A stretch of DNA of 64,000 nt from Mycobacterium pseudokansasii (lineage in GTDB: Bacteria > Actinomycetota > Actinomycetes > Mycobacteriales > Mycobacteriaceae): contig NZ_UPHU01000001.1 in assembly GCF_900566075.1 (NCBI RefSeq), positions 1,674,001 to 1,738,000 on the forward strand, read 5' to 3'. Every line of letters starts with the position of its first letter. Positions within the stretch are counted from its first letter, which is position 1. The notes beneath the pieces are model-generated. The model saw nothing but the letters and a program-made list of their open reading frames with translations. It ran no database searches and was not told the origin of the DNA. Below are positions 43,479 through 57,642 of the stretch, one piece after another. Position numbers and translations under genes: made by a program.

Positions 43479-43551
43479 GGGGCTATGGCGCAGCTGGTAG
43501 CGCACCACACTGGCAGTGTGGGGGTCAGGGGTTCGAGTCCCCTTAGCTCCA
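43479..43551 (+). tRNA. tRNA-Ala (anticodon GGC)
   Basis: 73-nt cloverleaf: acceptor GGGGCTA/TAGCTCC (one G-T pair), D-stem GCGC/GCGC, anticodon stem CCACA/TGTGG with loop CTGGCAG, so anticodon GGC (Ala, GCC codons), T-arm AGGGG-TTCGAGT-CCCCT, discriminator A. CCA is not encoded. Its 3' half is the attachment target of the mobile elements downstream, as copies of it recur at 47939, 48808 and 49727. A short antisense ORF containing GTRTPDP is an artefact of tRNA sequence. Confidence 0.97.
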
Positions 43552-43560
43552 CAGAGAAAC
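43528..43560. mobile_element. attachment-site copy A (tRNA 3' end)
   Basis: Starts GGGGTTCGAGTCCCCTTAGC inside the tRNA-Ala and runs to ACAGAGAAAC. It matches copy B at 47939-47971 in 31 of 33 positions. This is the intact target (attL side) of the island. Confidence 0.8.
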
Positions 43561-43818
43561 CGCAGGTCACGGCGTTTTGGCGTTTTTCCCGTCAACATCG
43601 CGGTCAACATCAGGCGTATTTTGCCTTTCGCGCCGCTCCCATCGAGGAAGTCGCAGATTGTGACTGGGGGTTCGCCGCGATGTGACTACTGGCGACGGCC
43701 GCATTCAACGCGATGGTCTTCCTCACCGAGTCCGAGTTCGCCGGTGAACGCCACCTTGTCGACATCAGCGACAACAACGCGGTCTGGTTTCTCACTCACC
43801 TGATTAAGGCGGTCCGGG

Positions 43819-44091
43819 CTACCCTCCCAGAACTTGTTGACAGGGGAGCGCGGCGTCGAGGTCGCGTGCGACGTCGTTGCGGTTCCCGAGGGCGATGAGG
43901 TCGATGTCCTCGCTCAGGTGTCCGTGCGGGAGGTATGCGCGTGCCGGGGCGGTCCCGCCGATGAAGTGGATCCGGTCACCGAAGTCGCGGCTGAGGAAGG
44001 CCAGCAGGTGGGAGATGAGGTGGTCGCGTTCGACTTGTTCGGTGGAGACTCCGAATTGTGTTGCTAACGAGTGGCGTTCGTCAGGATCCAT
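43819..44091 (-). pseudogene. AbiEii-type nucleotidyltransferase toxin, truncated
   Basis: 90-aa remnant of an AbiEii toxin. It has FIGGTAPARAYLPHGHLSEDIDLIAL, the nucleotidyltransferase GGTA...S-D-D/E motif, but full-length proteins have over 200 residues; here the frame ends PCQQVLGG just after the catalytic segment. The break lies next to the tRNA-proximal DNA (43560-43818), so a deletion probably removed the C-terminus. ATG overlaps the antitoxin stop by 11 bases. Confidence 0.8.
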
Positions 44092-44734
44092 AATCTATCC
44101 CAGCCCACTTCTCGGCGCGGCGCAGGGAGGCTAGCCGGCGCTGTTCGGTTGCGAGTGCCTGCAGGCGGTTCTTGTCGCTGCGCGCGTAGAGGGCCGCGGC
44201 CGCGGTAGGGATGTCGGTTTGGTCGTCACCGAGGGTTGGGCGGTGAGCCAGGTCGAGGACAGTCTGTTCGGGTGTTGTCACCAATGTCGGCCCCAGGTCG
44301 GTGCGGATCCGTTCGGCGTCTAGGCGGCTGGTGTCGCGTTGGACGAACCGCACGATCGCTGGCCGATCGCTCAGCGTGATGGGGCGGTGCTGGCGCGGTA
44401 CGGCCACGAGTGCGGTTGCCAGAGCGCGTGGGATGACTCCGTGCAGTCGTGCGGCGCTGAGGCCCATGACGACGATGTCGTCGTGGTGGTGAATTGTTGT
44501 GGCGATTCCCGCGGCGGCGGCCTCCAGGCTCGGAAGCCATTTGTGCCCCACCATGTTTTGCGGGACGACGACGTAGTAGCCGTCGGCGAGGCGGTGCAGG
44601 AGACCGTGATCGGCCAACCGAACCAGCTGGGTACGGGGATGGGCGTACACGGCGGCGGCGTCGCGTGGCCGGATGGTTTTCAGTGGGGTCTGTGCGAGGG
44701 CGGCCGGGATCGGGGTGCTGTGGTTTCGCGCCAC
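44081..44734 (-). CDS. AbiEi-type antitoxin
   Basis: 217-aa antitoxin/repressor of the AbiE phage abortive-infection system. N-terminal winged HTH (RPRDAAAVYAHPRTQLVRLADHGLLHRLADGYYVVV), then the AbiEi_4-type body (GLSAARLHGVIPRALATALVAVP, TTPEQTVLDLAH). GTG 44734 fits GAGGAG six bases upstream better than the ATG at 44755. It should bind the inverted repeat at 44758-44776. With the toxin truncated it may be an orphan. Confidence 0.85.
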   Translation of the reverse strand: MARNHSTPIPAALAQTPLKTIRPRDAAAVYAHPRTQLVRLADHGLLHRLADGYYVVVPQNMVGHKWLPSLEAAAAGIATTIHHHDDIVVMGLSAARLHGVIPRALATALVAVPRQHRPITLSDRPAIVRFVQRDTSRLDAERIRTDLGPTLVTTPEQTVLDLAHRPTLGDDQTDIPTAAAALYARSDKNRLQALATEQRRLASLRRAEKWAGIDYGS

Positions 44735-44757
44735 ATCCGCTCCTCGGGTATGCAAAT

Positions 44758-44776
44758 CGTACTTTTATAGAGTACG
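44758..44776. promoter_or_regulatory. AbiEi operator and promoter candidate
   Basis: CGTACT-TTTATAG-AGTACG, a perfect 6-bp inverted repeat with a 7-bp AT-rich spacer, about 24 bp upstream of the AbiEi start. On the minus strand the spacer reads TATAAA, a possible -10. AbiEi proteins bind inverted repeats to autoregulate. Confidence 0.65.
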
Positions 44777-44965
44777 AAATGCATAATAAAGCGCGTAAGG
44801 TCTGTTGCGGGTGCTGCTAGAGATTCCCCTCGCGGACGCCACGGCGGCGCTACCGGTGTTCGACACCACCGACATCGCCGAGATCCTCAACCAAGGCATC
44901 CGCCAAGTTGGAAGCGTGTTGACCACGTCAACAGCGCAGGCGACAGACTGCAACAGCTTCGCGCG

Positions 44966-45232
44966 GTGCTGCCGTGCGAGATCACGGTAACTGATCGCGC
45001 GCACCCATTGTACGGGGAACAGTTGCGAGCGTTGTCATTTCGTCGACGACAGGGCGTGCTGAGGCTGGTGGTCGTGCTGCCGGACGGCACGCCGGGCATG
45101 GTGGCGGCCGACGCGACGGATGTCTTCGGTAGCGACGCCGCCGTGTTGGCGGGGTTGGCGACGACGTTGTCGGTCGAGGGGGTTCGACGGTTGCGGTCCC
45201 GGCTGGCGCGTGACACGGGCGTGTCGTCGTGA
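44966..45232 (+). CDS. DUF5372-like protein of the recombinase module
   Basis: 88-aa protein similar to short DUF5372-type proteins encoded upstream of large serine recombinases: EITVTDRAHPLYGEQLRALSF and VLRLVVVLPDGTPGMVAADATDVF. The frame is open further upstream without a start, so the N-terminus is uncertain. Probable accessory protein of the element; function unknown. Confidence 0.55.
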   Translation: MLPCEITVTDRAHPLYGEQLRALSFRRRQGVLRLVVVLPDGTPGMVAADATDVFGSDAAVLAGLATTLSVEGVRRLRSRLARDTGVSS

Positions 45233-45265
45233 CCGGGTCCGACCAGTTACGGCCGGGATGGGCAA

Positions 45266-45310
45266 GGCTCACCTCACTGGATCCGCGCCAACGAGACCAG
45301 GAGGTGAGCC
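45266..45310 (+). promoter_or_regulatory. hairpin sequestering recombinase-operon RBS
   Basis: GGCTCACCTC (45266-45275) and GAGGTGAGCC (45301-45310) form a perfect 10-bp inverted repeat around a 25-base loop. The right arm contains the ribosome-binding site GGAGG and ends directly before the GTG at 45311. As RNA it would hide the start signal; as DNA it could be an operator. Either would keep recombinase expression low. Confidence 0.6.
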
Positions 45311-45481
45311 GTGCGAGGAGTCAGGATAGCGGCCGCGGTGCAACTGCGGCTGCCGTGGGAGCAGGAGCGTGTCGCCGGGAGCTGGGAGCAGCTGCCGGAA
45401 CCCACACGGGCGCAAGTGTTGTCGCTGCTGGCCCGGATGATCGCCAGGGGTGTGCTGGCCGAGGACGGCAGCGATGGCTGA
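45311..45481 (+). CDS. 56-aa protein coupled to recombinase
   Basis: MRGVRIAAAVQLRLPWEQE followed by a helix PEPTRAQVLSLLARMIARGVL. GTG start after GGAGG. Its TGA overlaps the recombinase ATG (ATGGCTGA), so the two are translationally coupled. Similar short ORFs accompany this recombinase type; function unknown. Confidence 0.6.
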   Translation: MRGVRIAAAVQLRLPWEQERVAGSWEQLPEPTRAQVLSLLARMIARGVLAEDGSDG

Positions 45482-47692
45482 GCTGACCAAGATCCGGGCA
45501 ACGCACCTGCAACGACAGGCGTGGGTGTATGTGCGGCAATCGACGATGACGCAGGTGCGGGAAAACACCGAAAGCCTCAACCGGCAATACGAACTCGCGC
45601 AGCGAGCGCAGCACTTGGGGTGGCCAGCTGACCGGGTACGGGTGGTCGATGACGACCTGGGTTGTTCGGGCGCGGATGCGAACGCACGCAACGGGTTCAG
45701 GAATTGGTCGCCGCGGTCGGGTTGGGGCAGGTCGGCCTGGTGCTGGGCATCGAAGTGTCTCGGTTGGCGCGCTGCAACGCAGACTGGTATCACCTGCTGG
45801 ATCTGTGCGCGATGACCGACACCCTGATCGCCGACGCGGACGGGATGTATCACCCCGGTGACTACAACGACCGGCTCGTGCTTGGGTTGAAGGGCACGAT
45901 GAGCGAGGCTGAGCTGCACGTGCTGCGGTCGCGGCTCAATGCCGGGCTGCGGCACAAGGCCGCGCGGGGCGAGCTGCGCCAACTGCTGCCGGTGGGGCTG
46001 GACTATGACCAGGACGACCGGGTGGTGCTCAGCCGGGATGAGGCGGTCCGCGCCGCGATCACGGCGGTGTTCGACCGGTTCGACGAGCTGGGTTCGGCGC
46101 GTCAGGTGGTGCTGTCGCTGCGTGCGGATGGCCTGCGGCTGCCGCGCCGGTCCGCCGGCGCGCGGGTCATCCGCTGGGCCGAGGCGACCTACCCGGCGGT
46201 CCACGATTTTTTGACCAACCCCGCCTATGGTGGGGCGTACGTGTTCGGGCGAACGAAGGTGAGTCGGCGTCTGGACGAGGCCGGCCGCATCGTGGTCCGC
46301 GATCAGGAATTGCCGCGTGAGCAGTGGGAGGTGACCATCCCGGATCATCATCCCGGCTATGTGTCCTGGCAGACCTATCTGGCCAACCAGGATCGGTTGC
46401 GCGCCAACGTGCACCCGCCCAAAGGGCAGGGCGGCGGGGCGGTGCGTGAGGGCCGCGCCTTGCTGCAGGGGCTGGTGGTGTGCGGCAAGTGCGGGCGGCG
46501 GATGCTGGTCGGCTACTCCGGCCCCGATGGCCGAGTCCCACGGTATCTGTGCGCGCAGGGACTGCGGTTGTACGGCTCGGCGCGCAGCTGCCAGAGTCTG
46601 AGCGGACGCCGCCTGGACGCCGCCGTGGTCGAGGAGATGTTCACCGTGTTGCAGCCGGCCGCGTTGGCGGCCACCGCCGCCGCACTGGCCGAGGCCGAGG
46701 ATCAGCATGCCCGGCGGGTGCGCGCGTTCGAGCTGGGCGTCGAGCGGGCCCGTTACGAGGCCCAGCGAGCCCGCCGCCAGTTCGACGCGGTCGAGCCGGA
46801 GAACCGGTTGGTCGCCCGCAGCCTGGAACGCGACTGGGAAGTACGGCTGGGCACGCTACGTCAAGCCGAGGCCGACCTGGCCGCGCAGCAGTCCCGGCGG
46901 CCGGCGGTGCTCACCGAGGAAGAGGTGGCCTGGCTATCCCACGCGGGTGCTGACCTGCGGGCGGTGTTCGACGCCGACACCACCACCATCCGAGAACGAA
47001 AGCAGTTGCTGCGGTTGCTGATCGGTGAGGTCGTCATCAACGTCGACCGCGACGCTGGTCAGGCCGCGATCCGGATCCGGTGGGAAGGCAGCGCTCATAC
47101 CGATATCACCGTCGCGTTGCCGCGCCGCGGCGTGGACAGCGCGATCCGCACCGAGGCCGACACGCTGGAGCGTATTCGACGGCTGGCCGCCCACTACGAC
47201 GACGCGACGATCGCGCGCCTGCTTGCCCGGCAAGGCGTGATCACCGCGACCGGGTTGCCGTTCACCCGCGACCGGGTCGGCAGCCTGCGCCGCAAACACC
47301 GGATCGCCGGTCCCAGCGAACCTGTCGGACCCATCGACGAGGATGTGCACATGGTCAGCATCGCCGAAGCCCAGACGCTGCTGGGCACCTCCCGAGCCAC
47401 CCTCTACCGGTGGCTGGCCAGCGGGTTCATCCGCGGCGAGCAGCACGGCCCCGGCGGCCCGTGGCGAATCCGCATCGACGCCGAGCTGCAAGCCAAGATC
47501 ACCCCGGACGCGCCCGAGGGATGGGTTGGGCTCGAAGCTGCTGCCCGCCGACTCGGCGTTGCCAAACAGACTGTCCTGGACCGGATTCAACGCGGCGAGC
47601 TCAACGCGGTGCATGTCAACCGCGGCCAACGCAAGGGCCTGGCCATCCAACTGCCACCACCGGAAGATGCTTTGTTCGCTGCAACGCCATGA
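45474..47692 (+). pseudogene. large serine recombinase, one frameshift
   Basis: Large serine recombinase of about 738 aa if repaired. The ATG at 45474 reads THLQRQAWVYVRQSTMTQ (catalytic Ser after VRQ) and DDDLGCSGADANARNGF, then goes out of frame near 45698, where one C appears lost from an expected TTCCAG. The other frame continues ELVAAVGLGQVGLVLGIEVSRLAR, the recombinase domain, a zinc ribbon (VVCGKCGRRM...YLC), a long coiled-coil region, and two C-terminal MerR-like helix-turn-helices (VSIAEAQTLLGTSRATLYRWL; VGLEAAARRLGVAKQTVLDRI). The split separates the nucleophile from the rest, so the element is immobile unless this is an error. Confidence 0.85.
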
Positions 47693-47938
47693 AACGCCGA
47701 GGCCAGCGTGTCGCATCCGGTCCAGAGCACCCGGTCGCACCATCTGCGTGACCATGAAAACCCATAACAACGCAGCATCCGGCCCGAATCTGGACCGGAT
47801 GAGACAACCAGGGAAAGGAAATTAGTAGTGAGAACCCGGCTCGACACGCCCGAGGAAAACCGCTGGTGAGCTGAGTCCCTCAAATCGAGCGACCGGAACT
47901 GAAAGCGCTGCTAGAGACGTTTTCGCGCGCTTAATCGT

Positions 47939-47971
47939 GGGGTTCGAGTCCCCTTAGCTCTACCGAGAAAC
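47939..47971. mobile_element. attachment-site copy B
   Basis: GGGGTTCGAGTCCCCTTAGC followed by TCTACCGAGAAAC; 31 of 33 positions match the tRNA 3' end plus flank at 43528-43560. It marks the distal end of the segment carrying abiE and the serine recombinase, or the start of the next element. Confidence 0.8.
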
Positions 47972-47982
47972 ACGGTTTCAGG

Positions 47983-48003
47983 GCCCGGATTTTCGGGCTT
48001 TTT
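47983..48003 (+). terminator. intrinsic terminator after att copy B
   Basis: GCCCG-GATTTT-CGGGC followed by TTTTT. A compact stem with a T-run, oriented to stop plus-strand transcripts. A degenerate equivalent (GGCT-AGTTTG-AGCC then TT) follows copy D near 49780-49800. Confidence 0.7.
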
Positions 48004-48400
48004 GACGACAACCGTGACGACAACGGCGACTTCTTTGACGACAACCGCCCGGACGAGTCGCCGCCAAGGTTTTCGAACAGGATGCCCATCGAATCCAGCG
48101 CTTGGCGCTGTACCGCCTCGATCGCCTCGACGTAGGTTCCCGTAGTCACCGCGGCGAACCGTATCGCAAAATCCGCTGCTCGGTCGCGGGCGATGCACCC
48201 ACCGTGAACAAGCAAGCTGGCGCACGAGTGGCGAAGACCATGCACGCGCGGCTGCGGAACCTCTGCCCGAGCCGCACAGGCTGTGGAGCACCCGGTTGAC
48301 GTTGCGTGGTTCGAGAAAGCCAAGTTGCTACACAACGAAGCCCGGGCCGCCGGAATCATCTTCAGGCGCTTAGACTTTGACCTCAACTGTGTAGACCGCG
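48000..48400 (-). pseudogene. tyrosine integrase, decayed
   Basis: Remnant of a phage-type tyrosine recombinase next to att copy B. In order on the minus strand: LEPRNVNRVLHSL (about 48325-48280), then after a frameshift PRVHGLRHSCASLLVHGG (about 48250-48200, the H-x-L-R-H box), then TGTYVEAIEAVQRQALDSMGILF (to 48070) with the probable nucleophilic Tyr. The second His/Arg box is unrecognisable. The C-terminus running into the tRNA-like att copy is what integrases targeting tRNA genes do. N-terminal domains are missing. Confidence 0.65.
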
Positions 48401-48477
48401 GCATACTGGCCGAATCGAACGCGGCGCACGGCAGCCTCCGCGCAGCCCCGGCGGCTGGGATGGGGTCGCGCGGCACG

Positions 48478-48792
48478 CTAACGGTGATGCGGCGGTTGCT
48501 CGTCGCGGAGCCGGCTCTCGTCCCACGCCGAGCGCACCTGCTCCTCGTCGCCGAACCTCTCCAGGTCCTCGGCCGTGACGTGCAGCCGCGGTTTCGGCGC
48601 GGTCGGTCGTGGGCTTGGGGGCTCGGTGGGCACGAGGCGATTGTCCCAGTTTTGGGCGGAAAATTCCGCCGCCGACGGGTCGGCTTGGACGACATACGGT
48701 TCTTGGACGGGAGCGACATGTGCGGATCCCGACGTTTCCGAGCCGAGTAAGGTCGCGGCCGGAACCCGCAAGGTAGGCAGCATGGGTAGCAA
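48478..48792 (-). CDS. hypothetical island protein
   Basis: 104-aa ORF, Pro/Glu-rich in the middle, with a C-terminal charged helix (HVTAEDLERFGDEEQVRSAW). No recognised family. It lies between att copies B and C upstream of the integrase relic on the same strand, so it may be element cargo or a fragment. Confidence 0.35.
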   Translation of the reverse strand: MLPMLPTLRVPAATLLGSETSGSAHVAPVQEPYVVQADPSAAEFSAQNWDNRLVPTEPPSPRPTAPKPRLHVTAEDLERFGDEEQVRSAWDESRLRDEQPPHHR

Positions 48793-48807
48793 CGACGCTC
48801 AGTTCGT

Positions 48808-48832
48808 GGTTCGAGTCGCCTTAGCTCCACCA
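48808..48832. mobile_element. attachment-site copy C
   Basis: GGTTCGAGTCGCCTTAGCTC and CACC, the T-loop to acceptor part of the tRNA with one substitution. It is followed, as at copy B, by a GACGACAAC-type repeat (near 48872). Shorter and more decayed than B and D. Confidence 0.65.
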
Positions 48833-48966
48833 CTCGAAATGCTGTCTCAGGTCCAGACTTTCGAGCCTCTGACGACAACCACGGCGACAAGCGGCCGGCG
48901 GAATCGTCGCGTGGACGGACTCGGCCTTAGGCGCGGGGCCATGGCTTCCCGCGGGCTGCATGCCAA

Positions 48967-49293
48967 CTAGCGAGCCAGTCCGAGGAACACCATCAAAGAG
49001 CGTTCGATGTCCGCCATGAGTGCCGAGGGCGCCCGACCGATACGCGCGCCAAGGTTTGACCGGCGCACGGTCGTGATCTTGTCGATCATCGCGAAGCTGG
49101 GCTCGGTGATCTTCGTCGTCTCGTCGTTGGGCACGGCGACTCTGGATATCGGCGTGTCGGTGACGGTCGTGGTCAGCGGGATGACGACAACCGAATCTGT
49201 CTCCGAAAAGAGGTCGTCCTGGACGATGATCGCCGGGCGCGGCCTGGCTGCGTAGACACCGCCGGAGACGGTCCACAACTCGCCACGATTCAC
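48967..49293 (-). CDS. MazF/PemK-type toxin
   Basis: 108-aa MazF endoribonuclease, apparently intact: MNRGELWTVSGGVYAARPRPAIIVQDDLF, VVVIPLTTT, EPSFAMIDKITTVRRSNLGARIG and a normal C-terminal helix (IERSLMVFLGLAR). ATG overlaps the antitoxin stop (ATGA), so antitoxin is made first. It is island cargo between att copies C and D and contrasts with the broken mazF at 129-467. Confidence 0.88.
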   Translation of the reverse strand: MNRGELWTVSGGVYAARPRPAIIVQDDLFSETDSVVVIPLTTTVTDTPISRVAVPNDETTKITEPSFAMIDKITTVRRSNLGARIGRAPSALMADIERSLMVFLGLAR

Positions 49294-49508
49294 GCGTCGT
49301 CGTCCAGCGAACCGAGAGCGGAGATCGCCTCGACGAACTCCATGTCGTCGCTGTGTCGGTCAGCCTCCGCGAGTGCCAGCGCCTCACGGTGTGCTTCAGC
49401 GGCGAACGCAGCTGAGCGGACATCCGGCACCCACACTTGGACCGGGCGGTACCCCCGCAAGCGCATGCGCTCGCGGTACTGGCGGGCTCTCCGCGTCGAT
49501 GTGCTCAT
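49290..49508 (-). CDS. MazE-type antitoxin (DUF3018-like)
   Basis: 72-aa antitoxin from the ATG at 49508: RRARQYRERMRLRGYRPVQVWVPDVRSAAFAAEAHREALAL (in parts), then an acidic tail that would wrap the toxin. This matches DUF3018-type partners of MazF. A perfect 16-bp palindrome lies 24-39 bp upstream and is the likely autoregulatory site. Confidence 0.82.
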   Translation of the reverse strand: MSTSTRRARQYRERMRLRGYRPVQVWVPDVRSAAFAAEAHREALALAEADRHSDDMEFVEAISALGSLDDDA

Positions 49509-49531
49509 GCTCCCACTGTTGCATGAAACGG

Positions 49532-49547
49532 GTGTTGCATGCAACAC
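49532..49547. promoter_or_regulatory. mazEF operator palindrome
   Basis: GTGTTGCATGCAACAC, a perfect 16-bp palindrome upstream of the antitoxin. Extra half-sites TGTTGCA flank it at 49517-49523 and 49559-49565, giving room for cooperative binding of the toxin-antitoxin complex. Confidence 0.75.
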
Positions 49548-49726
49548 GGAGAAATTATGTTGCAGGTTGACCACGCGAGCGAGTCCATGCCGAGGACCGA
49601 TTGCTCGTGAGTCGGCGATGGCTGACGACAACTTTGACGACAACCGTGACGACGGTTGCGCCGCCCAATACGGCTCCTACCACCCGAATCCCGGTTATCG
49701 CGCCTGGTCACGCCTCCTGCCCGCTC

Positions 49727-49773
49727 CTGGCAGTGCGGGTCTGGGGTTCGAGTCCCCTTAGCTTTACCAGGAA
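49727..49773. mobile_element. attachment-site copy D
   Basis: The longest copy: begins at the anticodon loop (CTGGCAGTG), then GGGGTTCGAGTCCCCTTAGC and TTTACCA. Two bases shorter than the tRNA in the variable region. It is the last copy before ordinary chromosomal genes, so it is the probable outer boundary (attR) of the island. Confidence 0.78.
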
Positions 49774-49928
49774 AAACGCGGATCAGCGGGCTAGTTTGAG
49801 CCGTTTGACGACAGTGCTGACCCTCGGGGCGGCCCGACTTCGGCAACACGGATGCGGCCGGCCGCCCTGCGCCGCCTACTGGCGGTGTCGCAGCAGGGTT
49901 CCGGCCGACCCGCAAACGGTCCGGTGAA

Positions 49929-50396
49929 TTACGCGTCCCAGCTGGTCAGGTCGCGGGCTGGGATGCCGTGGTCGGCGCAGTAGGTGGTGTAGCGCTCGAT
50001 GGAGGTCTTGTGGTTCTCCTGCCACAGGATGGTGTTGTTCTCGTCGATGAACAGCAGCTCGCCAACGATGACGAAGAACACCTCGGTGTCCTCCACGCTC
50101 TCCGGGGTGTGCCTGGAGCCGGCCACCTCGTAGACGGTGTCGCCGGCGCGGGAGACCCAGTTGTTTTCCTGGTAGCGCCACGCCCCGGATACGGTGTGCC
50201 CGATCACGATGCCGGTGTGGTAATGAGGAGGTAGCTCGAGCCCGCCGGGAAACTTCATCGAGACGATGATCTCGCCACGCACCGGGTCGATCTTCCAGTA
50301 CTTGAGGAACACCTTGTCGGTGAGCGGGGTGAAGGGAATCCAGGGATTGTCGGCGCCGCTCATGTAGTTGACGTCGAGCTCTTGCAGCGTTTGCAT
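49929..50396 (-). CDS. cupin dioxygenase-like protein
   Basis: 155-aa cupin of the acetylacetone dioxygenase / 2,4'-dihydroxyacetophenone dioxygenase group. HYHTGIVIGHTVSGAWRYQENNW supplies the metal-binding H-x-H and Glu, and SRHTPESVED the last His. It probably cleaves a C-C bond of a ketone with O2 and Fe(II). The PucR-type regulator lies upstream on the same strand. Confidence 0.78.
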   Translation of the reverse strand: MQTLQELDVNYMSGADNPWIPFTPLTDKVFLKYWKIDPVRGEIIVSMKFPGGLELPPHYHTGIVIGHTVSGAWRYQENNWVSRAGDTVYEVAGSRHTPESVEDTEVFFVIVGELLFIDENNTILWQENHKTSIERYTTYCADHGIPARDLTSWDA

Positions 50397-50695
50397 CGGG
50401 GTGCTCCTTGCTTCTTGATCGTTGGTGGCCGGTCGGCCAACTGACTGAAACGGTAAGGGCGGCTGCAGCGAATTCCTTGGCGCGCGACGCCAAGGTTGGT
50501 GCGCCCGCTTGTGTTCACATCACAGTGCGAGGGGACGGAGTGTCGCGGGTCTGCTCACACGTTGCGGAGACTCAGGGCCCTTGCCAGAGCGGCTGGTCAA
50601 CCGATGTCGGAGCGGCATGGGAGGAGCCGCGTTGTTGTGGAATCTGTTACACCCGACAGTAATTGGCTGTGGTGAGCGGTGCGGCTGGAGCCATG
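50397..50695. other. gene-free 299-bp gap
   Basis: Between the PucR-type gene and the cupin gene, both on the minus strand. It must hold the cupin promoter and any PucR binding site. I see no ORF with a convincing start and no strong palindrome. Confidence 0.5.
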
Positions 50696-52000
50696 TCACG
50701 GTTCGGCGGTGCGGCCCTCGCGGATGAGCCCCGGCAGCGTGGGCAGTAATACCAGGGCCACCGCGAGGTCGAGGCTGTCGGTGTCGATGCTGCGACCGAG
50801 CATCTTCTCGGCTTGGTCAACGCGGTAGCTGACCGTGTTGGGATGCACGGTGAGTCGCTGCGCAGTTCGGACCCGACTGCGGTTCTCCTGCAGGTACACC
50901 GACAACGTCGTGGCCACTCGGTAGGTCGCCTCGTCGTCGGTGGCCAGCGGACCAAGCACCCGGTGAACAAACGACGCCGCCTGTTCGGCGTCGCAACTGG
51001 CCAGCGCGGCGGCCGCAACATCCCGGTAATGCGTCAGCGTGCCGGCGCGCGTGCCGGCCAGCGACGCGACCCGGCGGGCATTGGATGCTTCGATATGGCT
51101 GCAGCGGAAGCCTTTCAGTCCGTGCCCGGGCTCGCCGATACCGATCCGAACGCCATCCGGAAGCGTCGGCCGACGCGTCGAAGTGTCTGTGGTGTCGAAA
51201 CCGACTGTGCCAATATCGCTTCGCCAGCTGAACCAGCCGAACGCCACGAGAGAGCCGCCCGGGTGGATGAGTGTTGTGTCGGCGCCCATCTCGCGCGCAA
51301 GAGTGGTGAGCGCCTCATTCAGCGATGACTGAGCGTCGCGGTGCTCCGGCGCCGAATCGACCCAGGCGATCACCCCGACGTGGTGGCGGTTGACGTCGTA
51401 GCGCAACCGTTTGGAGGCCCGCTGCGGGTCACGCTCGCGTCTCGCCAAAATGTCGTCGATGGCGTCCGTGCGGGCGGCCGCGGTGTTACGCAGCCAGATC
51501 TCGCGCTCGGCCTCATAGGCCTGCTCCGCGCGGTTCAAGGCCGCGTCGATGTAGCCGAACATCCAGCTGGTGGCGAGCCGAAACGCCAATGCTTGTTGCG
51601 TCCGGTCGGTGGCGGCCGCCGTGATCCGGTCCCACATCCACTGCCACAACAACGTTTGGGCCAGCCGGTAAAAACGCATCAAATTGGCCAGCGGAATCTG
51701 GCGCATCACGCCCGCTCGGGCAATGGCCAGGGTCGGTGCCGGCAATTCGACGTCGCGAGGGTCACCGGCCACGTCGATGATGTCGGCCAGCTGGCGGATG
51801 CCCGCCTCGGTGCTGACCAGGTTCTCCTTGACCGACTGCGGGTCGGGAAATAGGACTGGCATCTCCGTCTGCATCTGGGTGACGCACCGTTCGGCCAGTT
51901 CTGCGGCGGCAGAACGCAGTTCGGCGACTATCGGGCGCAGCAGTTCCTTCCAGACCTTCTCGGCGTCTGGCTCACGTAATGGTTCCCACGCGGGTTCCAT
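50696..52000 (-). CDS. PucR/CdaR-type transcriptional regulator
   Basis: 434-aa regulator. The C-terminal HTH_30 (TAQRLTVHPNTVSYRVDQAEKMLGRSID) is the PucR signature; a GGDEF-like/CdaR middle domain precedes it (RLRYDVNRHHVGVIAWVD, IGIGEPGHGLKGFRCSHIEASNARRVA), and an N-terminal RsbR-like helical sensor starts the protein. It likely activates the downstream cupin gene in response to a metabolite. Confidence 0.85.
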   Translation of the reverse strand: MEPAWEPLREPDAEKVWKELLRPIVAELRSAAAELAERCVTQMQTEMPVLFPDPQSVKENLVSTEAGIRQLADIIDVAGDPRDVELPAPTLAIARAGVMRQIPLANLMRFYRLAQTLLWQWMWDRITAAATDRTQQALAFRLATSWMFGYIDAALNRAEQAYEAEREIWLRNTAAARTDAIDDILARRERDPQRASKRLRYDVNRHHVGVIAWVDSAPEHRDAQSSLNEALTTLAREMGADTTLIHPGGSLVAFGWFSWRSDIGTVGFDTTDTSTRRPTLPDGVRIGIGEPGHGLKGFRCSHIEASNARRVASLAGTRAGTLTHYRDVAAAALASCDAEQAASFVHRVLGPLATDDEATYRVATTLSVYLQENRSRVRTAQRLTVHPNTVSYRVDQAEKMLGRSIDTDSLDLAVALVLLPTLPGLIREGRTAEP

Positions 52001-52103
52001 GGCGGCCTAACATACTCCGCTGTGACGCCGCCACAACGGACATTCGGCGATGTTGGTGCGAGGAAACGAGCCGGCGTCGCTGCGGAATACCTAGCCTCAC
52101 CGC

Positions 52104-52234
52104 GTGCTGAAGACAAAAGACCTCACAGACCGAATCGTGGTGATCACCGGGGCCGGCAGCGGCGTGTCGACGTATCCGACGCCGAGGCGATGACACGATT
52201 CGCCGACGTCACCATCGCCCGGTTCGGCCGGTAG
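52104..52234 (+). pseudogene. SDR relic
   Basis: Fragment of a short-chain dehydrogenase: GTG at 52104 gives LKTKDLTDRIVVITGAGSGV (Rossmann glycine loop) and then stops; another frame ends DVSDAEAMTRFADVTIARFGR at 52234, which is the segment before the missing NNAG. An internal deletion of about 25-30 residues and loss of everything after beta-4 leave only this scar. Confidence 0.6.
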
Positions 52235-52584
52235 ACCTCGTGGTCAAGCCCAGCCGACGCGATGACGGAAAGATCGTCGTGACACCGCGACCGGCTACGC
52301 GGGTGCGATGAACAGGTTGGGTTGTCACATCCGGAGCGATCCGAGGGAACGTGCCCTGCGCCAGGTGCTGTTTCGCGACATCCTCGGTACCCGGGGTAAA
52401 CGTAGGACCGTGCGGCCCGTGCTTGTGATCCGCTCACAATCTCCTGGATCGGTGTTGGCGCGCTGGCACGAGCTGCCATAGCCGTTGGGCCGTTAACTTT
52501 TTCAGCATGATCAAGCGCGGTGCCCCCAATCCCGCCGCGCCAGTGGTCTAGGCCTTCGAACAACTACCCGCGCAAGGACAAGCC
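52235..52584. other. gene-poor gap after SDR relic
   Basis: 350 bp between the SDR relic and the WS/DGAT gene. One plus-strand frame from an ATG at 52309 is open for 58 codons but matches nothing I recognise and has no good ribosome-binding site. Probably decayed coding DNA plus the WS/DGAT promoter. Confidence 0.4.
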
Positions 52585-53934
52585 ATGAACCTGATGTCAC
52601 CTGTCGAGTCGATGATGTTTCTCGCCGAGTCGCCCGGTCACCCTATGCATGTCGCAGGGTTGCAGCTGTTCGATCCGCCGCAGGACACCGGGCGGGAATT
52701 CGTCCGTGAGTACTACGAAGGGCTCCGGGCATGTGACGATGTGCAGCCTCTTTTTCGCCAGCGTGCAGCGACCCTGCCAGGAGGGCTGAGTGCCGCATGG
52801 TCTTCGGCGACCGACGTCGACCTCGACTACCACGTGCGGCACTCAGCACTGCCCGGCCCCGGGCGGGTGAGGGAGCTGCTCGAACTGGTATCGCGTCTGC
52901 AGTCCGGCATGCTCGACCGGCACCGTCCGTTGTGGGAAACCCATGTCATCGAGGGGCTCGCCGACGGACGCTTCGCCGTCTACACCAAGATCCATCACGG
53001 CCTCGTCGATGGGATATCGACCATCAACCTTCTCCAGAATTCGCTCAGTGCGGATCCACTCGACCGGGAGATCCGTGCGCCGTGGGCGTCGCCCATTCGA
53101 ACCGACGAGCACGCCGGAGCTTCGTCAAGGTTGCAAATTCTGATCGACACAATCAAATCGGTCCCGCGACTTGGCGCCTCGACTCTCCGTTTGGCGCGTT
53201 CCGCCCTGCTCGAACAGCAGATGACCTTGCCGTTCCAAGCGCCGCGAACCATGCTCAACGTCCCGATCGGCGGCGCCCGACGCTGCGCTGCCCAGTCGTG
53301 GTCGCTGCAGCGCATCAAAGACATCAAGAACGCCGCGGGTGTTTCCGTCAACGACGTCGTGCTTGCGATGTGCGCCGGCGCTCTGCGCGGGTACCTGACC
53401 GATCAGAACGCACTGCCCGAAAAGCCTTTGGTGGCAATGGTTCCAGTCAGCCTCCGCACCGCCGACGACGCCGCTGGCGGCAACGCGGTCGGGGCGGTGC
53501 TGGCCAATCTGGCCACGCACGTCGACGACCCCGCTCAGCGTCTGGCCGCGATCAACTCGTCCATGCAGCAGAACAAGGCGGTCCTCGCACAGATGCCCAG
53601 GCCGCAGGCGATGGCGTTGGGAATGATGTTGCTCTCGCCGGTGGTGCTGGGCGGAGTGACGGGAATGTCAGCGACGCGACCGCCATTCAACGTGTGCATC
53701 TCGAACGTGCCCGGTTCCCGAAACCCGCTGTATGCCAATGGCGCTCGGCTGCAAGGCAGTTATCCGATGTCGATCGCGGCGAACGGACAGGCGCTCAACA
53801 TCACCCTGGTCAGCAGCGGCGACAGCCTCGACTTCGGTCTGGTGGGATGCCGCAGTGCCATGCCGCATCTGCAGCGGATGCTGGCACATCTGGAGACGTC
53901 ACTCAAAGACCTGGAGCAAGCCGTCGGGTTGTGA
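52585..53934 (+). CDS. WS/DGAT-family acyltransferase
   Basis: 449-aa wax ester synthase/diacylglycerol acyltransferase. Opening MSPVESMMFLAESPGHPMHVAGLQLFD, catalytic HHGLVDG (HHxxxDG), and the family blocks VNDVVLAMCAGALRGYL and FNVCISNVPGSRNPLYANGARL are in place. It esterifies diacylglycerol or fatty alcohol with acyl-CoA to make storage lipid. GGACAAGCC precedes the ATG. Its last 32 bases overlap the convergent hydratase/thioesterase gene. Confidence 0.92.
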   Translation: MNLMSPVESMMFLAESPGHPMHVAGLQLFDPPQDTGREFVREYYEGLRACDDVQPLFRQRAATLPGGLSAAWSSATDVDLDYHVRHSALPGPGRVRELLELVSRLQSGMLDRHRPLWETHVIEGLADGRFAVYTKIHHGLVDGISTINLLQNSLSADPLDREIRAPWASPIRTDEHAGASSRLQILIDTIKSVPRLGASTLRLARSALLEQQMTLPFQAPRTMLNVPIGGARRCAAQSWSLQRIKDIKNAAGVSVNDVVLAMCAGALRGYLTDQNALPEKPLVAMVPVSLRTADDAAGGNAVGAVLANLATHVDDPAQRLAAINSSMQQNKAVLAQMPRPQAMALGMMLLSPVVLGGVTGMSATRPPFNVCISNVPGSRNPLYANGARLQGSYPMSIAANGQALNITLVSSGDSLDFGLVGCRSAMPHLQRMLAHLETSLKDLEQAVGL

Positions 53935-55132
53935 CGGCGTGACTGCCGATCGCACGGGCGACCATTTCGCCGTCCTGGAAAACTTCCGCCTCCGAAGCGA
54001 CGACGCGGCGACCGGCCTTGGTGGTGCGCGCTAGGCAGGTCAGTAGTGTCCCGGGAACGGCGGGCCGCAGGTACTGAATCGTCAAGTCGAAATGCGGAGC
54101 CGTCAGCTGTTCACCGAGTGCGGAATGGACCGCCAGTCCGGTGGCCGCGTCCAGAAGGGCCGCGAGGAATCCGCCGTGGACCGTTCCGCGTTCATTGCAG
54201 TGCTCTGCCGTCGGCATGGCCTCCACAACGGCCTGCTGCTCGTCGGAACGCCCATACCGGAAGCCGAGGAGTTCGGCAAAGTGATGCTTCATCGGCGCGT
54301 CAACCTTCCGGTCGGGAAGATCCTGCCAGTCAGCCGGAACCGACGCCGTCCACATCGGCGCGCGCTTTGCCCGATAGGCCGCAACCGCCTCCCTGCTGTC
54401 ATCACGTCCCATCAGTCGTCGATGAAGTTGGGTCTCCAACTCGGCCACCTGCCGTGGCGCATACCCGTTGATCGCGGTGTCCCACAGCAGCCGCTTGGAC
54501 AGCGCTGCGGACATGGGCGCCACGTTCTCGATGATGTCGGTTGCGATCGTCATGGCATGCGTCAGGACCTCGGTACCCGGCACGGCGGCGGCGATGCCCA
54601 TTCTGGCGACTTCGGTACCGCGGATTGTGCGGCCGGTCAACAACAGGTCTGCCGCGGTGGCCAGCCCGGCCAGACGCAGCAGCGTCCAATGCGACATGCA
54701 GTCACCGATCACGCCCCGCCGCGATTGGACGACTCCGTATTTGGCTTCCTCGGCGACGACGCGGATGTCGGTCTGAAGCGCGAGGGTGAACCCGATGCCG
54801 ATGGCGTGGCCGTTCATGGCCGCGATCACCGGCTTGCGAAGTTCGAACGCCGCCGGCTGGATCGGGGATGCGGAGAAGTCGCTGTGCGTAGGTGAGTCGA
54901 ACGGATCGGCGTCGCTCATGTCGGCGCCTGCGCAGAACGCCGATCCCGATCCGGTCACCACGATGACGCGCACGGAGTCGTCGCTGTCGCAGCGGCGGTA
55001 AGCCTCGCCGAGGCGGCGGCCGATCTCAGGAGTGTAGGCGTTGAGGGCATCGGGTCGGTTGAGCGTAAGCAGTGCCACCCCGTTGCGGACTTCCTGTCTG
55101 AGGACGTCGTGCATCTCAGTAGCTGGCGGCAC
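53903..55132 (-). CDS. enoyl-CoA hydratase - hotdog thioesterase fusion
   Basis: 409-aa fusion. Residues 1 to about 255 are a crotonase domain (LLTLNRPDALNAYTPEIGRRL, GSGSAFCAGADMSD oxyanion loop, GRTIRGTEVARMGI); residues about 275-409 are a PaaI-like hotdog thioesterase (HCNERGTVHGGFLAALLDAATGLAVHSALG). Hydration (or isomerisation) of an enoyl-CoA and hydrolysis of a CoA thioester would be done by one protein. Overlaps the PhyH gene by 17 bases upstream and WS/DGAT by 32 at the 3' end. Confidence 0.85.
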   Translation of the reverse strand: MPPATEMHDVLRQEVRNGVALLTLNRPDALNAYTPEIGRRLGEAYRRCDSDDSVRVIVVTGSGSAFCAGADMSDADPFDSPTHSDFSASPIQPAAFELRKPVIAAMNGHAIGIGFTLALQTDIRVVAEEAKYGVVQSRRGVIGDCMSHWTLLRLAGLATAADLLLTGRTIRGTEVARMGIAAAVPGTEVLTHAMTIATDIIENVAPMSAALSKRLLWDTAINGYAPRQVAELETQLHRRLMGRDDSREAVAAYRAKRAPMWTASVPADWQDLPDRKVDAPMKHHFAELLGFRYGRSDEQQAVVEAMPTAEHCNERGTVHGGFLAALLDAATGLAVHSALGEQLTAPHFDLTIQYLRPAVPGTLLTCLARTTKAGRRVVASEAEVFQDGEMVARAIGSHAVTTRRLAPGL

Positions 55133-56709: not shown

Positions 56710-57642
56710 TTACGGCACGGCATCATAGTCGGAGTAGAACCCGCGGCCACTCTTGACTCCGAAGTCCCCGCGAGCCAGGTATTCGCGCAGCAGCGTCCGC
56801 GGGCCTTCGGGTATGCCGTCGCGGACCTGCGCGTAGTGCTCTTCGACGTCGAGCACCACGTCGAGGCCGATCTGATCCATCATGCGGAACGGCCCGGCCG
56901 GTGAGCGGAAGACGTCCTGAAAGATCCGGTCGACATCCTCGGGCGTCGCCACGTCCTCCTGCACGACCATCAGCGCCTCGCGTTTGATGGCGGCCCAGAT
57001 GCGGTTGAAGATGAAGCCGACGCTTTCTCGCCGCACCTCGAACGGCACCAGCCGGTAGCGGGGCAGAAGTTTTTTCAGCGCGTCGATGATGGCGCTGTCG
57101 GTCGTGCCGCAAGACATCAATTCGACACTGTTGGCAAGCGGAGGCATCAGGAAATGCATGTTCAACAGCCGCCCGGGGTGCTTGACGGCACTGGCCATCT
57201 GGCTGCTCGGATACGACGACGAGTTGGTCGCCACGATCGCGTCCCGGTCGGCGAGTTCGTCGACGGCGGCCAGCAGCTTCCGCTTGATCGCGAGATCCTC
57301 TGCCGCCGACTCGATGATGAGCCACGCTCCGCGAACGGCATCCTCGAGCGGTGTGACGACCTCAACGGTTCCCGGCGGTGGGTCGGAAACAGCGAGCATC
57401 TCGCGCACCTGCGGTAGCTGGTCGGCCACGAAGCGCTTGGCTGATTCGGCGCGATCCGGGGTGCGGTTGTAGATGTGTACCCGGCTGCCCCCGAGGGCGA
57501 ACATCAGCGCGATACGAGCGCCGAGCGTACCTGCTCCGAGGACCAGAACGGGACGTTGTTCGATGTCGCCGGGAATCGCATAGGACGTCGATTGCGGGGT
57601 CGCAGCGCCGATATGCTCATCGCCGATCTGGTTCGTGTTCAT
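56710..57642 (-). CDS. 3-hydroxyacyl-CoA dehydrogenase
   Basis: 310-aa NAD-dependent dehydrogenase: Rossmann loop VLVLGAGTLGARIALMFALGG, ESAAEDLAIKRKLLAAVDEL, ATNSSSYPSSQMA, HFLMPPLANSVELM with the catalytic His, and the C-terminal helical domain (GFIFNRIWAAIKREALMVVQE). Oxidises 3-hydroxyacyl-CoA or a related hydroxy acid; the substrate may be unusual since PP replaces the usual HFFNP. Part of the lipid cluster with PhyH and the hydratase fusion. Confidence 0.85.
   Translation of the reverse strand: MNTNQIGDEHIGAATPQSTSYAIPGDIEQRPVLVLGAGTLGARIALMFALGGSRVHIYNRTPDRAESAKRFVADQLPQVREMLAVSDPPPGTVEVVTPLEDAVRGAWLIIESAAEDLAIKRKLLAAVDELADRDAIVATNSSSYPSSQMASAVKHPGRLLNMHFLMPPLANSVELMSCGTTDSAIIDALKKLLPRYRLVPFEVRRESVGFIFNRIWAAIKREALMVVQEDVATPEDVDRIFQDVFRSPAGPFRMMDQIGLDVVLDVEEHYAQVRDGIPEGPRTLLREYLARGDFGVKSGRGFYSDYDAVP

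Follow-up and report, generated by a model that had tools for sequence, protein, structure and literature searches.

Stacked att-flanked segments at a tRNA-Ala gene of Mycobacterium pseudokansasii: a likely tandem accretion of CIME-like toxin-antitoxin cassettes

Why does the 3′ end of a tRNA gene recur three times, always on the same strand, in the DNA that follows it? This is the arrangement behind tRNA-Ala(GGC) in a stretch of 64,000 nucleotides of the Mycobacterium pseudokansasii genome, the whole of which we call the window. An earlier note, made from the sequence of the window, had read it as several integrations at one tRNA. Our comparison with relatives supports serial integration at tRNA-Ala well, and we consider it likely that the locus is a tandem accretion of integrase-less cassettes flanked by attachment (att) sites, akin to cis-mobilizable elements (CIMEs), and mobilised in cis or in trans by the integrase of an actinomycete integrative and conjugative element (AICE). 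In such a process, a circle carrying attP (P arm, core and P′ arm) would arrive and recombine with the core in the tRNA, which would rebuild the tRNA 3′ end and leave a core copy behind; later arrivals would repeat the integration, so that core copies would come to separate the units. Accretion and CIMEs are already known, and the novelty lies in the mazEF unit of the window belonging to a recurring class of integrase-less, att-flanked cassettes with toxin-antitoxin or candidate-defence genes.

Core copies, arm repeats and the mazEF unit

ARAGORN finds a single tRNA in the window, the tRNA-Ala(GGC), which had a match in all 118 genomes of the genus searched. A search for the 25-bp core at its 3′ end (GGGGTTCGAGTCCCCTTAGCTCCAC), on both strands and with up to 8/25 mismatches, yielded three further copies on the strand of the tRNA and no other in the window on either strand, and 200 shuffled cores gave 2 matches in total at up to 5/25 mismatches (+ strand of the window). 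The three same-orientation copies of the earlier note are confirmed, with C at 48806 and D at 49743 in place of 48808 and 49727. The cores, the short repeats around them and the genes between C and D are as follows.

43479..43552, + strand: tRNA-Ala(GGC), whose 3′ portion serves as the attachment core (copy A; ARAGORN)
43591..43611, + strand: two arm-type repeats GTCAACATC, 12 bp apart, at +38 and +50 from core A
47939..47963, + strand: core copy B, 1/25 mismatch (core search)
48004..48045, + strand: three P′-type arm repeats GACGACAAC, at +40, +52 and +73 after core B
48806..48830, + strand: core copy C, 2/25 mismatches (core search)
48871..48879, + strand: P′-type arm repeat GACGACAAC, at +40 after core C
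48967..49293, − strand: whole mazF toxin gene (PF02452, 3.4e-19, profile 2-109/109)
49290..49643, − strand: mazE-like antitoxin gene, start uncertain (PF11455, 3e-19)
49624..49653, + strand: P-type arm repeats before core D (−119, −107 and −95)
49743..49767, + strand: core copy D, 2/25 mismatches, with weaker similarity from 49728 (core search)
49807..49813, + strand: single P′-type arm repeat, at +39 after core D

GACGACA stands at each of the distances given behind B, C and D, copy A having GTCAACATC instead; repeats similar to those of copy A follow the tRNA in two relatives (G047 and G074; G-numbers denote genomes and L-numbers loci fetched from relatives, which were sampled as one genome per species). 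The earlier note had placed repeats and hairpins behind B, C and D. The repeats are there, although the main ones of D lie in front of it, whereas only at B does a hairpin exceed shuffled sequence (z −3.15; A −0.06, C +0.38, D +0.22). By analogy with mycobacteriophage attP, with its arm-type sites and tRNA cores (described in passages of PMC10865867), the repeats may be arm-type integrase sites and the core copies attachment-site junctions.

In relatives, GACGACA lies within 150 bp upstream of 55 of 75 distinct non-tRNA core copies, a share that is inflated because most loci were chosen by a query containing the arm (49/56 copies in loci picked with the C–D unit of the window have a P arm vs. 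2/7 and 3/10 in loci chosen by the tRNA or by the flanking gene pgm). The arm geometry is unaffected by this selection: in 50 of the 55 the motif is at −122, −110 or −98 (within 1 bp), upstream motifs number 163 on the same strand vs. 2 on the opposite one with a background of 0.032 per 150 bp, and downstream repeats are commonest near +40, +52 and +73. When 71 pairs of units with different cargo were aligned, their right ends were 0.70 alike and their left ends weakly so (0.56), vs. 0.46 in 46 random pairs. The exact arm and core pattern was matched in 4 of 251 genomes of the family, two of them of the genus (G004 and G053) and two of other genera.

C–D is a complete integrase-less, att-flanked cassette, with mazF and mazE between core plus P′ arm on one side and P arm plus core on the other. 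CIMEs, like accretion, were defined for integrative and conjugative elements (ICEs) and integrative and mobilizable elements (IMEs) (PMC5704250, in part). The direct-orientation cores C and D with their arms bound the unit as attL and attR, and it has no genes for integration or transfer, mazEF being all that was recognised in it, with no match to the integrase profile described below, RepSA or FtsK. The unit shares arm sites with AICEs, but has no ICE gene left.

Small cassettes at tRNA-Ala in relatives

The sequence after tRNA-Ala varies in nearly all loci inspected among relatives, and the comparison proposed in the earlier note, for empty sites and partial stacks, turned up a relative without the stack and another with a different one. 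G057, which has the closest flank among the loci compared (96% over 3.1 kb of left flank), has the tRNA and then a terminator-like hairpin, with no stack in the 15.8 kb compared; its similarity to the window resumes at 56718, and no mazEF match was among those listed for its genome. In G219 (pgm 90%) the order is tRNA-[DUF4143 ATPase]-[DUF4143 ATPase]-[mazEF]-[ParD/ParE], the first ATPase being assigned by Pfam and PADLOC and the second by blastp, with arms at every junction but without the last core, which has been lost. Arms like those of copy A are also found in G074 (91%), where, among the matches listed, an attR-type copy lies 36 kb away. The arm junctions, the stack-free G057 and the differing stacks therefore argue against both tRNA duplication and fixed inheritance, and bear out several integrations at one tRNA. 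G057 also has a stretch of its own of ~4.2 kb after the tRNA (L139), with many internal repeats and beta-propeller-like by reading only, for which no match was found in any other locus fetched.

We measured 41 intervals between successive core copies, 23 of which, from 17 genomes, are shorter than 3 kb. The intervals come from chosen loci, namely five fetched earlier (L015, L046, L050, L057 and L110), 40 loci chosen around the tRNA, the window, and 60 loci picked by matches to its C–D unit, mostly to the att end; a 674-bp mazEF unit with a degenerate right copy (L028, G071) was left out of the 23. Toxin-antitoxin or candidate-defence genes were found in 21 of these small units: an AAA_14/DUF4143 ATPase in 8, BrnTA in 4, mazEF in 3, the Fic family in 3, an AbiEii-like nucleotidyltransferase in 2 (weak scores) and DUF5615 in 1, with PADLOC reporting PDC-S01 in all four of the 8 ATPase units that were scanned. 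The remaining two are the B–C relic of the window and a unit whose main open reading frame (ORF) reads like an ABC ATPase in translation. mazEF was part of the query, and without the three small units that carry it (window C–D, L187 and L132) the count is 18 of 20. Cargo was assigned by blastp in the second unit of L187 and the third of L188 and L223, by DNA identity for mazEF of L187 and L132, and from translation and alignment for BrnT of L015.

All but one of the 23 small units span 0.8-2.4 kb, and stacks reach four units. The BrnTA unit measures 812-822 bp in G032, G194, G209 and G182, where it lies beside different neighbours, and the length of the mazEF unit is 935 bp in G219 and 937 bp in the window. 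Because their ends stay constant between genomes while their neighbours change, the mazEF and BrnTA segments appear to be independent units. The earlier view that each integration decays but leaves its toxin-antitoxin genes consequently has weaker support; the A–B segment, with AbiE and a serine recombinase, is broken. The further suggestion of a tRNA-anchored stack of defence or addiction modules not only stands but widens, as such stacks recur at tRNA-Ala in other genomes of the genus. In another genus, the att pattern alone led to a 1.1-kb unit at tRNA-Ala with HepT-like and nucleotidyltransferase genes; a second genome of another genus with the pattern has a 1.6-kb unit, and the one ORF examined there had no family match.

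BrnTA matches (E ≤ 1e-10) were present in 26 of 396 genomes. Seven genomes (G194, G209, G182, G032, G105, G167 and, as a remnant, G106) carry the match at tRNA-Ala or at one of its att junctions, in three the match is in the arm region only, and 16 were not placed at tRNA-Ala; two GACGACA 12 bp apart were found in none of the 14 loci fetched from BrnTA genomes of the last group. The mazEF family is likewise not limited to tRNA-Ala, with homologues of 74-78% on plasmids and elsewhere among the matches listed. No toxin-antitoxin cassette array at tRNA-Ala in mycobacteria was found in the literature searched, where subscription papers and bioRxiv preprints are thinly covered, and the available parts of PMC7478629, PMC11389934 and PMC6456199 describe no such arrays.

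Source of the integrase and other explanations

None of the 23 small units has an intact integrase of the family sought. Among units with a P arm, the profile used, from nine integrase sequences and with serine integrases outside its coverage, matched 1 of 22 small ones (the relic in the window) and 1 of 10 larger ones (L199, where the gene is split); it matched 5 of 8 larger intervals without a P arm; the single small unit without a P arm, L224, holds an integrase relic. The integrase of the cassettes is most likely supplied by AICE-type elements with the same site and arms, and would act in cis when such an element is accreted or else in trans. Two candidates, L136 (G004) and L152 (G039), carry, close to tRNA-Ala, genes for an integrase of the family, RepSA and FtsK, and share GACGACA-type arms (L136 by Pfam PF00589, PF20199 and PF01580, with RepSA at 4.6e-133; L152 by tblastn). 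We class them as AICE-type because RepSA and FtsK genes accompany the integrase, and in both the integrase, RepSA and FtsK-like translocase genes lie between att sites; in G004, ~23 kb separate the tRNA from an attR-type copy, and no further copy was seen in the intervening loci. The stack in the window has neither RepSA nor FtsK: the RepSA, FtsK and HTH proteins of L136 gave no tblastn match at 1e-3 in the whole window, where only the integrase relic was matched. In G209, BrxD- and BrxH-like genes (L301; bacteriophage exclusion (BREX)-like defence) share a contig with tRNA-Ala and a 77% integrase, and another contig has a three-unit stack; in G219, a 59% integrase is on another contig.

A phage satellite or prophage as helper was rejected, since none of the 10 proteins of the G004 element matched a phage structural family (the FtsK protein gave a weak terminase-like score, 1.9e-6) and the exact arm and core pattern had no match in viral contigs. 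The D-side junction had no match among plasmids, and phage records have only the core in common with a cassette junction of G219.

Could the small units be mere leftovers? The visibly broken A–B and B–C segments, together with the L224 relic and the split L199 gene, are what one would expect of pure decay, in which AICEs or prophages integrated serially and lost all but deletion-resistant toxin-antitoxin genes, the small units never having been mobile, and decay to CIMEs is a described route (PMC5704250, in part). We regard this as unlikely, given that units of equal cargo keep constant ends and lengths across genomes and positions and that arm spacing is preserved. Moreover, mazEF is more alike than the pgm flank (94/92/92% vs. 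90/85/85% in G219/G023/G064) and so is one Fic pair (L050/L224, 94% vs. 84%), which suggests horizontal movement; pairs with a flank identity of 0.46-0.49 were left out of this comparison, since the gene upstream of the tRNA differs there.

Homologous recombination between the arrays of different strains, through the shared ~145-bp att repeats and with no integrase, would be compatible with the att unit of the D side, which recurs at 72-81% identity in many genomes among the matches listed, and with a window genome that has no intact close integrase. However, a first insertion into an empty site needs site-specific recombination, and core and arms are preserved as expected of an integrase site, making this explanation rather improbable. 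Duplication of the tRNA gene or chance similarity has practically no chance of being correct even though the copies consist of tRNA sequence, since only the 3′ part is copied, arms are on fixed sides, ARAGORN finds one tRNA, the copies are missing at the closest flank compared and shuffled cores barely match. The idea of one island with internal repeats was also rejected.

Accretion of cassettes mobilised by an AICE integrase remains the reading we favour, with several observations weighing against it. Where loci were picked by the tRNA or pgm alone, a P arm is present at only 5 of the 17 non-tRNA copies, and other att classes are therefore no less common; neither an arm nor a core is clear on the left side of B or at the right end of the block after D. 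Genes of other kinds occur in some larger units that lack this integrase, and BrnTA homologues exist away from tRNA-Ala and without arms. An ATPase pair (L223/L226) is no more alike than its flank (0.855 vs. 0.847), and stronger selection on cassette genes than on pgm could also raise the identity figures. Base composition gives no foreign sign (units 0.639-0.665 G+C, flanks 0.66). The genome of the window has only the integrase relic, its next best matches being 31-36%, and its array may therefore be frozen. Among the genomes compared, one per species, neither an excised circle nor a transfer was observed, and excision and transfer of cassettes are what we infer; homologous recombination between arrays could alternatively shuffle units. 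As to units of other content, those of 6-11 kb in L130, L207 and L217 have GACGACA arms and no integrase-profile match, and their genes read as metabolic or transport genes from translations only.

The cargo probably keeps cassettes in place by penalising cells that lose them. More tentatively, and with the odds slightly against it, one may envisage an integron-like system on tRNA-Ala, in which AICE integrases acting in trans would excise, transfer and restack non-autonomous cassettes of ~0.8-2.4 kb, each with one toxin-antitoxin or defence module between att junctions, throughout mycobacteria and two or more neighbouring genera. Chromosomal integrons are arrays of small cassettes, many with toxin-antitoxin genes, and are likened to the present stacks by array layout alone; here, in contrast, the junctions are tRNA cores with arm repeats, and cargo lies in both orientations. 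If cassettes move as units, mycobacteria would have a route besides plasmids and phages for gaining toxin-antitoxin and anti-phage genes singly at a fixed place, which would bear on the high numbers of toxin-antitoxin loci in some of them and make the tRNA-Ala 3′ end a place to seek new defence genes, for which the fixed arm geometry offers a simple search pattern.

Like the present units, CIMEs have attL and attR but no integrase and accrete in tandem, at the end of a single gene, with elements that carry an integrase (PMC5704250, in part), whereas many of the units here are tiny, are found again as separate cassettes in several genomes and for the most part hold one toxin-antitoxin or candidate-defence gene set. 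In Streptomyces, AICEs and defective AICEs accrete at tRNA-Arg, where elements lie in tandem along with a remnant that lacks traB and where cis mobilization has been proposed, but those remnants are not described as toxin-antitoxin cassettes in the available part of that article (PMC9513070), and mycobacterial tRNA-Ala stacks have up to four units. L136 and L152 hold all three hallmarks of pSAM2-type AICEs (integrase, RepSA and FtsK-like Tra) beside tRNA-Ala with the same arms, yet use a tyrosine integrase there, while, according to a passage in PMC3218068, every Mycobacterium AICE known at the time, with one exception, encodes a serine recombinase (AICEs are also covered in parts of PMC8190616). 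Tandem insertion at resident att sites is likewise found in M. abscessus at a tRNA-Thr site, where it was attributed to integrase recombination, but those are full prophages with their own integrases (PMC9934374, in part). Prophage attB sites and att-linked defence loci are treated in sections of PMC8092301.

The other segments and further att classes

A–B, with AbiE and serine recombinase genes, is an element that has decayed and that probably belonged to a second arm class. B–C is what remains of an element that carried an integrase. After D, a 4.2-kb block was added as well, and its right end has been lost. Their features are the following.

43819..44091, − strand: AbiEii remnant of 90 aa, covering roughly the first third of the family (PADLOC AbiEii positions 1-83/249, 2e-37)
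44081..44755, − strand: whole AbiEi antitoxin gene (Pfam PF09407, 1.4e-10; PADLOC AbiEi, 2.1e-99)
44966..45232, + strand: small ORF ahead of the recombinase, no family match
45450..45815, + strand: ORF resembling the N-terminal part of a serine recombinase (translation; no Pfam match alone)
45662..47692, + strand: bulk of the serine recombinase (domains Resolvase, Recombinase, Zn ribbon and HTH_17; Pfam)
47709..47806, no strand: 18-bp inverted repeat, 94% complementary, after the recombinase
48048..48348, − strand: C-terminal relic of a tyrosine integrase, in two pieces (59% to residues 345-421 of the L136 integrase; profile 7.7e-12)
49768..53932, no strand: further accessory block (Pfam; comparison with G219 and G074)
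49929-50396, − strand: cupin gene, within this block
50696-52000, − strand: gene for an Rv1453-family-like regulator, within this block
52585-53934, + strand: WS/DGAT acyltransferase gene, within this block
53933..53960, no strand: start of the right flank common to G219 and G074, ~96% identity from here

The cargo listed in the earlier note (AbiE, serine recombinase, integrase relic and mazEF) is present, but AbiEii is cut to about one third and the recombinase is split, its N-terminal domain lying in two frames; the two pieces of the integrase relic are 58% and 54% identical to the L136 integrase by tblastn. Recombinases similar to that at 44966-47806 occur on many rhizobial plasmids. Nor does the interval 43479..49773 make up the whole island, as the accessory zone continues beyond 49773 to ~53932. 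The block with the cupin, regulator and WS/DGAT genes is missing from the corresponding place in G219 and G074, has homologues elsewhere in several relatives, and shows no core copy at its right end.

A second arm class, with GTCAACATC or GTCAACA, has the core in common and the arms at about equal distance (43591-43611, where they are 12 bp apart, and L128, L131, L208 and L246). One junction, in L208, has GACGACA arms before the core and GTCAACA arms after it, and is hence a chimeric att site. A further class at tRNA-Ala (L110, L150, L155 and L156) has copies preceded by TTTCACAC or TTCACAC, without GACGACA arms, and an integrase-profile match beside the tRNA.

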